DNA of 59,968 bases from a virus, in the IMG/VR virus record IMGVR_UViG_3300034071_001219, positions 1-59,968 of that record. The stretch is one strand, 5' to 3'. Shown here one piece after another: positions 2,884-46,893 of this stretch. The notes under the pieces were generated by a model that saw only the letters and a list, made by a program, of their open reading frames with translations, was not told where the DNA came from and searched no databases. Each line of letters opens with the position of its first letter. Position 1 is the stretch's first letter. The translations under genes were made by a program, and so were the position numbers.

Positions 2884-3419
2884 TAATTCTCTTATTAACT
2901 GCATCAGGTAGGGCACAACAAGCACCAAGTAATACAAATATTGCAGGTCCTTCGGCATCTGCTACTGGCAATGTAACCAACCAGGCAGTTCAAGTATTGC
3001 AAGGTCCTTATGCTATGAATACCTATGGTGGTGGAGTATCTTGTCAAGGTCCAACAATGAGTATATCGCCATTTGTATTGGGAAATATGAATGGTAGTGC
3101 TGACCCAGATGCATTCCAAACACATAATGGTAATGCAGGTATCAGTATGGGATTCAACTTTCCCTTAGATGGAAGTTTAACTGAATTGTGTAAAGAAAGA
3201 GCACGAACAGAAATCAAAAGGCAACAAAGTGAAGTTGAAAAAAGTCGTTTAGATTTTGAACTCGTAAGGGCAAAACTTTGTTTAGAAATGATAAGAAATG
3301 GTGGGTTTTTTCATCCAGAAAGTCCTTATGGAAAAATATGTGCAGATATAGTTGGTCCATCACCTAATGGATACTTAATGACTGGAAATGGTACGGTTGT
3401 TTCTAAAATTAAAAAATAG
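2820..3419 (+). CDS. Secreted protein with C-terminal helix, 199 aa
   Basis: Starts inside the end of the preceding gene (64-nt overlap); no better start codon lies downstream of it before the hydrophobic segment (IIILLLTASGRAQ, residues about 21-33), which looks like a signal peptide. The middle is Gly/Asn-rich with two cysteines (SCQGP and TELCKERAR), followed by a charged helical stretch and a C-terminal Cys pair. Ends at the base of a perfect hairpin that precedes the homing endonuclease. No family recognised. Confidence 0.65.
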   Translation: MDRQNYRTTIYYKLSFCIYPIIILLLTASGRAQQAPSNTNIAGPSASATGNVTNQAVQVLQGPYAMNTYGGGVSCQGPTMSISPFVLGNMNGSADPDAFQTHNGNAGISMGFNFPLDGSLTELCKERARTEIKRQQSEVEKSRLDFELVRAKLCLEMIRNGGFFHPESPYGKICADIVGPSPNGYLMTGNGTVVSKIKK

Positions 3420-3476
3420 GTTGGATTTTGAACTTCCAATTTTTTATAAATAATAGTAGAAGTTCAAAATCCAACC
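3419..3476 (+). promoter_or_regulatory. Hairpin with internal late promoter controlling the endonuclease start
   Basis: A perfect 18-bp inverted repeat (3419-3436 and 3459-3476) with a 22-nt loop that contains TATAAATA at 3445-3452 on the plus strand. The right arm ends 2 nt before the ATG at 3479, so read-through RNA would bury the start region. A late transcript starting about 6 nt after TATAAATA (near 3458) would lack the left arm and leave it open. T4 homing endonuclease genes are known to be controlled this way. Confidence 0.8.
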
Positions 3477-3478
3477 AT

Positions 3479-4096
3479 ATGGGAAAAATATATTTAATTA
3501 CAAATACAATTAACAATAAAGTATATGTTGGGCAAACAAAACATTCAATAGAATATAGATTTAAAGAGCATCAGCATCCAAGTAAAAAAACTGCAATAAC
3601 ACAAGCAATTCAAAAATACGGCAAAGAAAACTTTACCGTAGAACTTTTGGAAGAATGCAATATCCACAATCTTGATGAAAGAGAAACGTTTTATATTGAA
3701 AAATACAACTCATATAAAGAAGGATACAACAATACCATAGGTGGAGGAAGTCAATATATTGCACATACACCAGAAGTAAAACAAAAATTAAGTATTTCAG
3801 CAAAAGGAAAACTTGCTGGAGATAAAAATCCAGCAAAAAGACCAGAGGTGAGGAAAAAAATTAGTGATGCACAGAAAAAACGAGTTGAAAATGGAGAATG
3901 GAAAAGTCCGACAGAAGGCGGGCATACTGAAGAAGCACTAGAAAAACTGAGGGCAAATCAACCAGATAGAAGTGGTAAAAATAACTCTAGATATGGAGTG
4001 AAAATGAGTGAAGAAACTAAACAAAAAATTAGAGAAAAGCAATTAGCAGCACAAGAAAGAAAACGAAAAAATGGAACCAATACAGCAAATAAATAA
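3479..4096 (+). CDS. GIY-YIG homing endonuclease (Seg-like)
   Basis: Free-standing homing endonuclease. The N-terminus carries the GIY-YIG module (KIYLITN... YVGQT, with RFKEH and the later E of the family). The C-terminal half has two NUMOD3-type DNA-binding repeats (KLAGDKNPAKRPEVRKKIS and NSRYGVKMSEETKQKIRE). A frame continues to 3428, but the ATG at 3479 is chosen because the domain begins there and a hairpin abuts it. It splits an otherwise coupled operon and its 3' end overlaps the next gene by 26 nt, consistent with insertion. Confidence 0.85.
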   Translation: MGKIYLITNTINNKVYVGQTKHSIEYRFKEHQHPSKKTAITQAIQKYGKENFTVELLEECNIHNLDERETFYIEKYNSYKEGYNNTIGGGSQYIAHTPEVKQKLSISAKGKLAGDKNPAKRPEVRKKISDAQKKRVENGEWKSPTEGGHTEEALEKLRANQPDRSGKNNSRYGVKMSEETKQKIREKQLAAQERKRKNGTNTANK

Positions 4097-32436: not shown

Positions 32437-32443
32437 ATGTAAC

Positions 32444-32539
32444 TCAGGCTCGCCACCAATTCTTTGACTGGAAATTGGAAACCAGGCGGGAGAGAGTCCC
32501 ATCCGCACCACTTGCTCTTAGGAGAAGCAAGAAACTCAT
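32444..32539 (-). CDS. Possible 31-aa peptide before gmd
   Basis: MSFLLLLRASGADGTLSRLV then SNFQSKNWWRA. The frame is open further upstream (KWWSQYDPI) without a start codon, so this could be the tail of a degraded gene. No ribosome site. The 32381-32570 interval holds nothing else but the hairpin. Confidence 0.3.
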   Translation of the reverse strand: MSFLLLLRASGADGTLSRLVSNFQSKNWWRA

Positions 32540-38702: not shown

Positions 38703-38703
38703 A

Positions 38704-38773
38704 GCCCGATAACAGAATTGAACTGTTCTCTGCAGTTTACTAAACTGCTGCATCACCACAATGCTTATCGGGC
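38704..38773 (-). tRNA. tRNA-Thr(AGT)
   Basis: Acceptor GCCCGAT/ATCGGGC, anticodon stem GCAGT/ACTGC, loop TTAGTAA. Anticodon AGT is unusual for bacteria (see findings). Its 5' end overlaps the last codons of the HNH gene by 9 nt. Confidence 0.85.
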
Positions 38774-39304
38774 GGGATTTGATAATACTCTACCTTTTCT
38801 AAACCCTTCTGGAATATCTTGATTTTTATCTATTCGATAAGAACCTTCTTTTGTTCCATCAGTAATCCACATTTTACCATACATAGAATTTTTTTCTCCT
38901 TGTTGATGTCCTATTCTCTGTAATGTCTTTTTTTTCTTTTCAATAGCATCAGGAGTGCAAGCCAACAATCTTGCATTAGGAGACATTTTTCTCAATAATT
39001 CTATTTGTTTTATTTTGAATTCTGGGTCATTCCACCTTTCCTTAAGAAGTTTACTACTAACATCTTTAGATAATTGGGAGTGGGGTCTATTTCTATTACT
39101 TTCCGCAATAAGTTTGGAAATAATTTCTTTTTTTGGTAAATATTTTACCAACCCCCTCCAAGCCAATTCATCTTCTACTTTACCCCACAATCTCCAATTA
39201 CAATAATGAAACATTGCGTGTTGAGTAATACTCAATTCGATTAAGTTTTCTGCAGAATCAGAACCTCCCATATGTTTTGGTATAATATGATGATGATGTT
39301 TCAT
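38765..39304 (-). CDS. HNH homing endonuclease inserted in the tRNA array
   Basis: MKHHHHIIPKHMGGSDSAEN ... LIELSITQHAMFHY is an HNH motif (HHIIPKHMGG, N, H). The middle has KLLKERWNDPEF and a C-terminal NSMYGKMWITDGT, as in phage Mob-type endonucleases. Lies between tRNA-His and tRNA-Thr and its last residues read into tRNA-Thr. The start is behind a hairpin containing a late promoter. Confidence 0.85.
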   Translation of the reverse strand: MKHHHHIIPKHMGGSDSAENLIELSITQHAMFHYCNWRLWGKVEDELAWRGLVKYLPKKEIISKLIAESNRNRPHSQLSKDVSSKLLKERWNDPEFKIKQIELLRKMSPNARLLACTPDAIEKKKKTLQRIGHQQGEKNSMYGKMWITDGTKEGSYRIDKNQDIPEGFRKGRVLSNPAR

Positions 39305-39312
39305 TTTAAAAA

Positions 39313-39346
39313 TTGAACCCTAATAACATTATTTATTAGAATTCAA
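39313..39346 (-). promoter_or_regulatory. Hairpin with internal late promoter controlling the HNH gene
   Basis: Left arm 39333-39346 (TTGAATTCTAATAA) pairs with right arm 39313-39326 (TTATTAGGGTTCAA) with two G.T pairs and a 6-nt loop; AATAAATA (39330-39337) spans loop and left arm. AGGG, the likely ribosome site for the ATG at 39304, is in the right arm. A late start near 39324 would remove the left arm. Confidence 0.72.
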
Positions 39347-39347
39347 T

Positions 39348-39418
39348 GTGTCGTATGAGAATTGAACTCATCTCCTCTGTTCCACAAACAGATGCCTTAA
39401 CCACTAGGCTAACGACAC
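39348..39418 (-). tRNA. tRNA-His(GTG)
   Basis: Acceptor GTGTCGT/ACGACAC, anticodon stem TCTGT/ACAGA, loop TTGTGGA, T-loop TTCAATT. Confidence 0.92.
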
Positions 39419-39420
39419 AA

Positions 39421-40533: not shown

Positions 40534-40562
40534 ATTGTAGAATAAATTTTGCGATTTGTCAA
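40534..40562 (-). promoter_or_regulatory. Sigma70-type promoter overlapping the end of the HNH gene
   Basis: TTGACA (40557-40562), 17-bp spacer, TACAAT (40534-40539). Confidence 0.7.
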
Positions 40563-40930
40563 GCGTCTAGACCTGCAGTATTAAGTATTTCATGATGAAC
40601 CTCACGATGACAGTTGGCACATACACATATACATTTATCCAATTCTTTAGTGATGGCATCCCAAGAACGAAGTCTTAATTTTTGCCAATCTACATCTTTT
40701 TGATTTGGATCCGTATGGTGAAATTCCAACGCTCCGTAAAATTTATCATAACCACAACGAATACATTTACCTCCTTTGTAGGAGATGGCATCTTTTTTTC
40801 TTTTTATCCACCTATCCATACAATAAGTATTAAAACAGGTACGGCATAAAGATTGAAACCCCTTTCCTTTTTTATACCCAGTTTCTTCATTTAAAGAAAT
40901 TTTGCATTTGGAACAAGTCTGTGATGACAT
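40559..40930 (-). CDS. HNH endonuclease with zinc-finger Cys pairs
   Basis: CSKCKISLNEETGYKKGKGF and CRTCF form zinc knuckles; KCIRCGYDKF ... ALEFHHTDP ... CICVCANCHREVHHE is the HNH nuclease core (H-H, N, H) with structural cysteines. 123 aa. Inserted between tRNA-Arg(TCT) and the tRNA-Lys side of the array. A TATAAATA box lies 28 nt before its ATG. Confidence 0.85.
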   Translation of the reverse strand: MSSQTCSKCKISLNEETGYKKGKGFQSLCRTCFNTYCMDRWIKRKKDAISYKGGKCIRCGYDKFYGALEFHHTDPNQKDVDWQKLRLRSWDAITKELDKCICVCANCHREVHHEILNTAGLDA

Positions 40931-40957: not shown

Positions 40958-40965
40958 TATTTATA
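40958..40965 (-). promoter_or_regulatory. Late promoter box TATAAATA before the HNH gene
   Basis: Exact late box placed between the 3' end of tRNA-Arg(TCT) and the HNH ATG at 40930. Confidence 0.7.
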
Positions 40966-41048: not shown

Positions 41049-41086
41049 ACCTCCAGGTTTGTGCATCGTTGAGAGGCATAGGAGGT
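41049..41086 (-). ncRNA. Structured element E2 upstream of tRNA-Arg(TCT)
   Basis: Outer stem ACCTCC/GGAGGT, inner stem TGC/GCA, conserved GATGCACAAAC strand; relative of E1 at 38406-38454. Confidence 0.45.
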
Positions 41087-45181: not shown

Positions 45182-46325
45182 CTTGCTTAATGCCTCCTAC
45201 GACATAACTTTCGACTTCTGTTTCTTGTGGGGCTACTTGAAGTCCTTTGGAGGAAATCCAGTGTTGAGTCCATGGAAGTGGATTATTATTTGCAGAAATA
45301 TCATATTGAGGTTTAAGACCAATTGCCTTTAGTCTACGATTTGCGATCCATTCGACATACTGCTGTAATAGTTTGTCATTAAGTCCGATCATGCTTCCAT
45401 CTTTGAACAGATAATCTGCCCAACGTTTTTCTTCATTTACAGCACGGTCAAACATTGCATATGTCCATTCTTCTTCTTCTTTCATAATTTGTTTCATTTC
45501 CGCATCATCACCATCTTTCCACTTATTCAAAATATTTTGAGTAATTGCTAAATGTTGGTTTTCGTCTCTTGCGATGAGACTAATGATTTTAGCGGATCCT
45601 TCCATAAGCTTAAGTTCACCAAAGGCGAAACTACAAGCAAAACTAACGTAGAAGCGAATACCTTCAAGAATATTAACGTTTGCGACTGCTCTGTACAGTT
45701 TTCGTTTGACATCGTTGATTGTTTCTTTTGCGTATGAGACTCCTTCAAGTCTGTGCATCCAAGTATCAGATACACCATACTGTTGTGCCGATTGAATAAA
45801 GTCATCATAAGACTCTGTAACGCTCTTAGCACGTTCTAGAATGCGGTTGTCGTTAATGATAGTATCAAATACCTCAGAAGGGTCTGAATAGATATTTTTG
45901 ATGATATAGGTATAAGAACGACTATGAATCATTTCCATAAATCCCCACACCTCCATACATGCTTCCAATTCAGGAAGTGAGCAATATGGAAGAAATGCCA
46001 TACCAGGACCACGACCCTGAACACTATCAAGCATAATCTGATACTTCAGATTAGAAGTATAGATATGCTTCTGCTCAGGACGAAGAGTTTGATAATCTCC
46101 ACGATCCTTCTGAAGAGATACCTCTTCAGGTCTCCAGAAATATCCAAGTTGTTGAGTAGTCAGTTTATCGAAGATAGGATATTTGTATGAATCATATCTT
46201 TGAACTCCAAGAGGAGCACCAAAGAACATTGGTTGTTTTTTTCTATCAATATTTTCCGTATTAAAAACCGTCATTCCTTTAACATTTGTTTGTGGTTCTT
46301 CTGTGGAAGATATTTTAAACTGCAT
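45144..46325 (-). CDS. nrdB: Ribonucleotide reductase class Ia beta subunit
   Basis: Di-iron/tyrosyl-radical subunit. PELEACMEVWGFMEMIHSRS and ARDENQHLAITQNIL supply the iron-binding Glu/His sets. The ATG at 46325 has GGAGG 8 nt before it and overlaps the HNH gene by 11 nt. C-terminal AGFQL is the tail that docks on NrdA. Makes dNTPs for phage replication. 393 aa. Confidence 0.93.
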   Translation of the reverse strand: MQFKISSTEEPQTNVKGMTVFNTENIDRKKQPMFFGAPLGVQRYDSYKYPIFDKLTTQQLGYFWRPEEVSLQKDRGDYQTLRPEQKHIYTSNLKYQIMLDSVQGRGPGMAFLPYCSLPELEACMEVWGFMEMIHSRSYTYIIKNIYSDPSEVFDTIINDNRILERAKSVTESYDDFIQSAQQYGVSDTWMHRLEGVSYAKETINDVKRKLYRAVANVNILEGIRFYVSFACSFAFGELKLMEGSAKIISLIARDENQHLAITQNILNKWKDGDDAEMKQIMKEEEEWTYAMFDRAVNEEKRWADYLFKDGSMIGLNDKLLQQYVEWIANRRLKAIGLKPQYDISANNNPLPWTQHWISSKGLQVAPQETEVESYVVGGIKQDVTKNTFAGFQL

Positions 46326-46893
46326 TTTTTGACCTCCAGGTAGTCCATTGTACATCTTCATTTGGTATCCATCCACATTTAAATTTCATTACCATATTTT
46401 GATGAGATGATTTCCACTTTTCATTTAAATTTGATGTAAGTTTATAATAACTTGGTTTTCCCATCTCAATCCATTTTTGATAGTAATAATCTGCCTTTTC
46501 CCAGATTTTTTTACTACTTTCATTTGAAGAAGGTATGTCCCAAGGAGATTTATTTTTATTTGGGTTATTCAGTTTCATATATTCAGAAACTAATTGCCTT
46601 GCTTTTTTTGATTGAGTTTTACATTTCATTCCTTTTGGATGCAATTTTCTATTACCAAAATTACCTTTGGAAAGTAGAACAACTGCATAGTTTAGTCCAG
46701 GATGACTTGGATAAATTTTAGATAATAATCTATGTGCCAATAAATGCTCTCTAAAAGTTAATTTTACCAGATTATCTACATTATCATCCCCACCCAGACA
46801 CTTTGGAACTATGTGGTGCATTTCACCAAGTTCTTCAGAGAAATTTATTTTACGACTTTCAATCAAAGAATTATATATTTTTTTATAATTCAT
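46315..46893 (-). CDS. HNH homing endonuclease between nrdA and nrdB
   Basis: LGEMHHIVPKCLGGDDNVDN ... LTFREHLLAHRLL is an HNH core (HHIVPK, N, H). 192 aa. Sits exactly in the nrdA-nrdB gap, the same place as T4 mobE-type endonucleases. Ends 11 nt into nrdB. No late box lies in the gap; a TGCTATAAT extended -10 (about 46923-46931) may drive it and nrdB. Confidence 0.85.
   Translation of the reverse strand: MNYKKIYNSLIESRKINFSEELGEMHHIVPKCLGGDDNVDNLVKLTFREHLLAHRLLSKIYPSHPGLNYAVVLLSKGNFGNRKLHPKGMKCKTQSKKARQLVSEYMKLNNPNKNKSPWDIPSSNESSKKIWEKADYYYQKWIEMGKPSYYKLTSNLNEKWKSSHQNMVMKFKCGWIPNEDVQWTTWRSKNAV

Follow-up and report, generated by a model that had tools for sequence, protein, structure and literature searches.

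A late promoter within a hairpin upstream of an HNH homing endonuclease gene of a cyanophage tRNA cluster: a probable late-expression switch of the T4 type

The HNH gene and its tRNA neighbours

The window, that is, the whole stretch of 59,968 nucleotides that was analysed, is a cyanophage fragment whose megablast matches were mainly Synechococcus and Prochlorococcus phages, the best one being S-SRM01 (Kyanoviridae). On its minus strand an HNH homing endonuclease gene (38765–39304; 179 aa; phrog_655 match with E 5e-14) is located between two tRNA genes of the same strand, tRNA-His(gtg) upstream (39346–39419) and tRNA-Thr(agt) downstream (38703–38773), and its stop codon falls within tRNA-Thr. 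Seven tRNAs lie 3' of the HNH leader on this strand. An Rfam abiF RNA (RF03085, 50 bits) was also detected in the tRNA cluster, just upstream of tRNA-Arg (41049–41085, minus strand), and a wcaG RNA (RF01761, 102 bits) was present at 32442–32539 of the same strand.

The 572 bp between tRNA-His and tRNA-Thr (38774–39345, minus strand) are occupied by the leader hairpin, the late promoter and the ORF; in the window and in the relative L010 this distance is exactly leader plus ORF. In the relatives L044 and L046 the two tRNA genes are directly adjacent, and this junction without the HNH gene represents a candidate empty allele. Since the insert comprises leader and ORF together and the flanking tRNAs abut in relatives, the leader appears to travel with the gene as one unit, in agreement with the "portable" control design put forward in a preliminary description of this DNA. 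The full-length relatives of the HNH protein that were scanned also adjoin tRNA genes.

The 179-aa protein is modular. Residues 1 to about 67 form the HNH module, with 61% identity to the HNH protein of the psbA-intron locus L038, although the Pfam HNH match of the whole protein (17.8 bits) is below the cut-off of 21.4. Residues 82–174, and no other part of the protein, match the C-terminal region of T4 SegB (BLASTP, 38% identity over 95 aa, E 5e-16); the N-terminus is HNH and not GIY-YIG. T4 SegB is a GIY-YIG enzyme encoded between T4 tRNA genes. Alignment of the relatives L044 and L047 revealed that the HNH part is kept and the C-terminus is different. The HNH protein is a tRNA-cluster counterpart of SegB in which a domain has been swapped. 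The enzyme had been described as an unrelated endonuclease; this holds for its catalytic half (HNH), but not for its C-terminal half, which is homologous to T4 SegB, a protein whose gene has the same kind of leader.

Hairpin and late box upstream of the HNH gene

Directly after tRNA-His, the minus strand reads 5'-TTGAATTCTAATAA-ATAATG-TTATTAGGGTTCAA-TTTTTAAA-ATG. The left (5') arm TTGAATTCTAATAA spans positions 39333–39346, its first base (39346) coinciding with the 3'-terminal base of the called tRNA-His; the ATAATG loop spans 39327–39332, and the right (3') arm TTATTAGGGTTCAA spans 39313–39326 and contains a Shine-Dalgarno (SD)-like AGGG at 39318–39321. The start codon is at 39304–39302. The stem consists of 14 pairs, two of them U.G, with one extra A-U pair at the base. 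One T4-type late box, AATAAATA (NATAAATA), runs from the end of the left arm into the loop (39330–39337); NATAAATA has been reported as the late box of cyanophages (PMC2984593). T4 late boxes are placed at -13 to -6, and an A at -13 is tolerated at nine T4 sites. This placement puts the predicted late transcription start at 39324; the predicted late leader, about 20 nt in length, would then lack the left arm. The 14-bp arms with two G.T pairs and a 6-nt loop, the late box overlapping loop and left arm, the AGGG inside the right arm and a late start at about 39324 that would remove the left arm had all been pointed out in the preliminary description, and each of them was found on the minus strand, the start matching the T4 placement.

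The hairpin RNA has a minimum free energy (MFE) of -13.9 kcal/mol (z -3.2; none of 200 shuffles was as good), whereas the opposite strand folds at -8.8 kcal/mol. An MFE-based count of pairs spanning the transcription start was too permissive, and an ungapped stem score was used instead, limited to hairpins extending across the predicted late start and compared with dinucleotide shuffles of the flanks. With this score the HNH hairpin reached 29, a value attained by 7 of 20,000 shuffles. Only two of the 20 ATAAATA sites in the window scored above 25, namely the HNH leader and a site at 3446 upstream of a GIY-YIG gene. The next-best sites (41582, score 24.5; 9191, score 24.0) have poly-T-flanked or T/A-rich stems. 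The predicted energy required to open the HNH start region was 13.4 kcal/mol in the read-through RNA versus 3.2 kcal/mol in the late RNA, which is predicted to be unstructured.

The SD-like element of this leader, AGGG, is weak and lies 13 nt from the ATG; its relatives mostly have GGGA or GGAG about 7–10 nt from the start. A TTTTT directly follows the right arm. The hairpin is identical in the near relatives L009-L012 and so contributes no covariation of its own; the covariation described below comes from other families.

Other endonuclease genes of the window

The site at 3446 belongs to the first case of this design that had been noticed in the window. Its hairpin (3419–3476, plus strand) has an 18-bp stem formed by 3419–3436 with 3459–3476 and carries the late box ATAAATA in the loop (3446–3452). 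Its stem score of 43 was not reached by any of 20,000 shuffles, and covariation was found in its relatives. Behind it lies a GIY-YIG/NUMOD3 homing endonuclease gene (3479–4096, plus strand; start taken from its translation), with both Pfam domains above cut-off. Two other endonuclease genes gave a different result. The zinc-type HNH gene at 40559–40930 has a late box at 40964 with no hairpin enclosing it, and the phrog_655 homing endonuclease gene at 46315–46893 (minus strand) has neither a late box nor a sequestering hairpin. The latter sits between nrdA and nrdB, where T4-like phages have mobE. The design, suggested earlier as a possible control of homing endonucleases in this phage, is thus present at two of the four endonuclease genes of the window and missing at 40559–40930 and 46315–46893.

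Recurrence in relatives and recovery of T4 controls

In our own tally of the distinct leaders of full-length IMG/VR relatives, which covers those outside the psbA-intron loci L026-L043, 10 of 16 had the late box enclosed in a hairpin that directly adjoins the start, with differing arms. This layout was also seen upstream of HNH_3 genes (L035, L273), zinc-type HNH genes (L210, L044:1262, L076), endonuclease-VII-like genes (L215, L216, L029), genes of the GIY-YIG family and the LAGLIDADG-like genes of L038 and part of L240-L268. The Pfam match of the latter is just under the cut-off and their PHROGs name is HNH. At the L038/L240-L268 loci Rfam detected a PhotoRC-II leader together with group I introns, and on this basis these genes are placed in psbA-like introns. 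The earlier suggestion that endonuclease genes of different families share this design with unrelated arm sequences is therefore borne out by its recurrence in relatives.

In three IMG/VR contigs (L038, L240 and L265) the psbA-like loci have a PhotoRC-II leader and two to four consecutive group I introns, with endonuclease genes in the introns, one of them behind a late-promoter hairpin.

One candidate was rejected. It concerns L026-L043, which are related to the N-terminal HNH module: an apparent late-box hairpin at a distance of 57 nt was excluded and read as an intron P1 helix, since the box overlaps the exon codons ...SLDEWLYK, apparently those of psbA D1, and Rfam group I introns were found in the L038 and L265 loci. 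In these loci TATAAATA lies about 57 nt 5' of the HNH start in an apparent P1 helix at the psbA exon/intron border, and such an occurrence of TATAAATA is a pitfall for motif-based searches.

The same scan recovered the T4 controls I-TevI, I-TevII, 49, e, soc and segB. For T4 segB, the same script placed the late box in the left arm and AGGAG in the right arm, with opening energies of 18.8 versus 5.9 kcal/mol (read-through versus late RNA), in agreement with the published case. The design was also found at genes that do not encode endonucleases, namely T4 e, soc and 49 and the uvsW-like helicase and phrog_4134 genes of cyanophages.

At the uvsW-like helicase genes L206:19656 (S-B43), L184:185 (SynMITS9220M01) and L216:461 (S-SRM01) a hairpin lying next to a late box contains the start codon or directly adjoins it. 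The phrog_4134-type gene is small and of unassigned function (L210:13807, L015:3583 and L017:3571, with the PHROG match run for L210); its start codon is in the right arm of a hairpin that comes after a late box. L015 and L017 carry this gene immediately 3' of the HNH gene.

Enrichment at endonuclease genes

As had been proposed, the pattern was searched for upstream of endonuclease genes in cyanophage genomes, and it was present. In eight genomes, a non-terminator stem scoring at least 20 occurred at 6 of the 20 endonuclease genes that lie behind a late box, compared with 9 of 232 other genes; this is an approximately 10-fold over-representation (Fisher p = 4e-4), to which a single phage, S-SRM01, contributed five of the six endonuclease matches. 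The filter removes stems that are followed by TTTT and would remove the window's own hairpin; the window stood outside this test. The list of endonuclease genes was compiled by motif and by hand, and in its corrected form false GIY-YIG matches (structural and uvsW-like genes) were taken out and four divergent endonuclease genes were brought in. Comparing opening energies of leaders that had been selected for the hairpin is circular, and the unselected version gave a weaker difference: the median gain in start-region accessibility was 3.8 kcal/mol for endonuclease genes and 1.9 kcal/mol for other genes (p = 0.006), calculated while the control list still contained the four divergent endonuclease genes.

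The non-endonuclease matches include uvsW-like helicase and virion genes. This indicates that the design is a feature of late genes in general, over-represented at endonucleases, and neither universal nor exclusive to them. As a homing-endonuclease design, it stands in the sense of over-representation and fails in the sense of exclusivity, given its occurrence at T4 e, soc and 49 and at the cyanophage uvsW-like and phrog_4134 genes.

Covariation and RNA structure

Among the GIY-YIG leaders both sides had changed at 4 of the 18 pairs, and the covariation score was not reached by any of 500 shuffles. The psbA-intron leaders yielded 20 double-changed cells, again with 0 of 500 shuffles reaching the score. 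When all non-Watson-Crick pairs were treated alike in the scoring, 43 endonuclease leaders contained 40 G.U and 13 A.C pairs, compared with 113 and 97 at other late promoters. Both the G.U counts and the covariation shuffles ignore phylogeny and related leaders are not independent, so that the p-values are indicative. The pair counting covered the leaders other than the divergent SegB-type ones (A2), whose MAFFT alignment was too poor. The excess of G.U over A.C, together with the pair changes on both sides, favours a structure in the coding-strand RNA rather than a DNA palindrome.

Proposed late-expression switch

The leader of the HNH gene is likely to be a late-expression switch of the type known for T4 I-TevI and segB and for mobE, here in a cyanophage. 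This reading is built on the sequence itself, the predicted fold and change in accessibility, the recurrence in relatives, the covariation in two families of related design and the insertion as a unit. An early RNA reading through the tRNA cluster would hold both arms, and its folding would hide the ribosome-binding region of the HNH gene and silence its translation. Late polymerase would start inside the hairpin, at about 39324; the resulting leader of about 20 nt would lack the left arm and would not fold, and the endonuclease would be made only late. The late promoter inside the hairpin thus probably turns the HNH gene on. The arrangement in T4 has been reviewed (PMC2988022, PMC3014915). 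Points that speak against a switch include the weak AGGG at 13 nt, the TTTTT after the right arm, the lack of covariation in this hairpin itself and the two endonuclease genes of the window that have no such leader.

ALTERNATIVES

One important question is whether the hairpin serves instead as a weak terminator, or as an element for 3' processing or stability of tRNA-His, overlapping the late box by chance. The hairpin begins at the final base of tRNA-His and is followed by TTTTT, and terminators combined with a late promoter exist in cyanophages, for instance in S-PM2 (L224:7097). However, the HNH stem is AU-rich and absent from the calls of the terminator scan, and a terminator here would cut off the seven downstream tRNAs of the same strand. 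Moreover, in the relatives L013-L017, L044 and L047 the right arm extends into the start codon with no T-run, while the late box and the GGGA of the right arm are mostly kept. We therefore regard this explanation as unlikely.

The inverted repeat might also be a DNA site, such as an operator at which the late promoter is repressed, be it by the endonuclease or by some other protein. I-TevI does bind an operator that overlaps its own late promoter (PMC2988022), and a palindrome across a promoter would suit a dimeric binder. Nevertheless, the arms vary among relatives and pairing is retained through changes on both sides, whereas a binding site would conserve its sequence; the mismatches on the coding strand, in addition, favour G.U over A.C. 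An operator in place of the RNA switch is very improbable. An operator role in addition to the switch is possible, although it would leave the covariation unexplained.

Finally, an AT-rich hairpin might have come to lie next to a frequent AT-rich motif by chance. The genome is long and AT-rich, the window holds 20 copies of ATAAATA, and stems with a score of 20 or more arose in 2% of the shuffled flanks. Chance is nevertheless scarcely credible in view of the 7 and 0 of 20,000 shuffles at the HNH and GIY sites, the recurrence among relatives and the compensatory changes in two families.

Comparison with known systems

Control by a late-promoter hairpin is not new as such: T4 and Aeh1 use it for enzymes of the GIY-YIG and HNH types. 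It has been described for I-TevI, segB and Aeh1 mobE (PMC2988022), the T4 and Aeh1 descriptions dating from 1988 to 2010. The closest counterpart of the HNH leader is T4 segB, which also lies between two tRNA genes of the same strand, has the late box in the left arm of the hairpin and the SD in the right arm, and encodes a protein with a homologous C-terminal part (38% over 95 aa). The two differ in that the catalytic domain of SegB is GIY-YIG and that of the cyanophage protein is HNH, in that the arms are unrelated in sequence, and in that segB has AGGAG close to the ATG whereas the HNH leader has AGGG at 13 nt. The late promoter of I-TevI is likewise placed so that the late RNA cannot fold; unlike the HNH gene, I-TevI is intron-encoded, and it also autorepresses through an operator. 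Aeh1 mobE, like the HNH gene, is a free-standing HNH endonuclease gene that combines a late promoter with a hairpin covering its ribosome-binding site, but it is located between nrdA and nrdB, where the endonuclease gene of the window (46315–46893) has neither. The T4 genes e, soc and 49 show the same control at non-homing late genes; their functions are lysis, capsid and resolvase, and they are not mobile elements.

Among the matches listed, a literature search in open-licence papers found no description of the hairpin/late-promoter design in cyanophages, and the range of hosts and enzymes found here is wider than in the descriptions from that literature. With evidence from covariation, the present analysis places this control, familiar from T-even phages and Aeh1, in cyanophages of marine and freshwater origin as well and at additional kinds of endonuclease. 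We suggest tentatively, with somewhat more doubt than conviction, that mobile endonuclease genes of the T4 superfamily have time and again gained a late-promoter hairpin that silences them, or bring one along as part of the mobile unit, and that the arms of this hairpin are free to vary while pairing and box are kept. Such a hairpin, shared by GIY-YIG, several kinds of HNH, endonuclease-VII-like and LAGLIDADG-like genes in T-evens, cyanophages and psbA introns, might then be generally required if such genes are to reside in early operons without harm. The combination of hairpin and late box also provides a sequence signature for spotting homing endonucleases in unannotated phage genomes.

According to a recent report, SegB of phage T6 promotes the amplification of tRNA genes by which a host defence is neutralised (PMC13096335); in the light of that report, the HNH family may have a comparable function in cyanophages. 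A possible likeness of the hairpin arms to tRNA T-arms (GTTCAA) looked suggestive.
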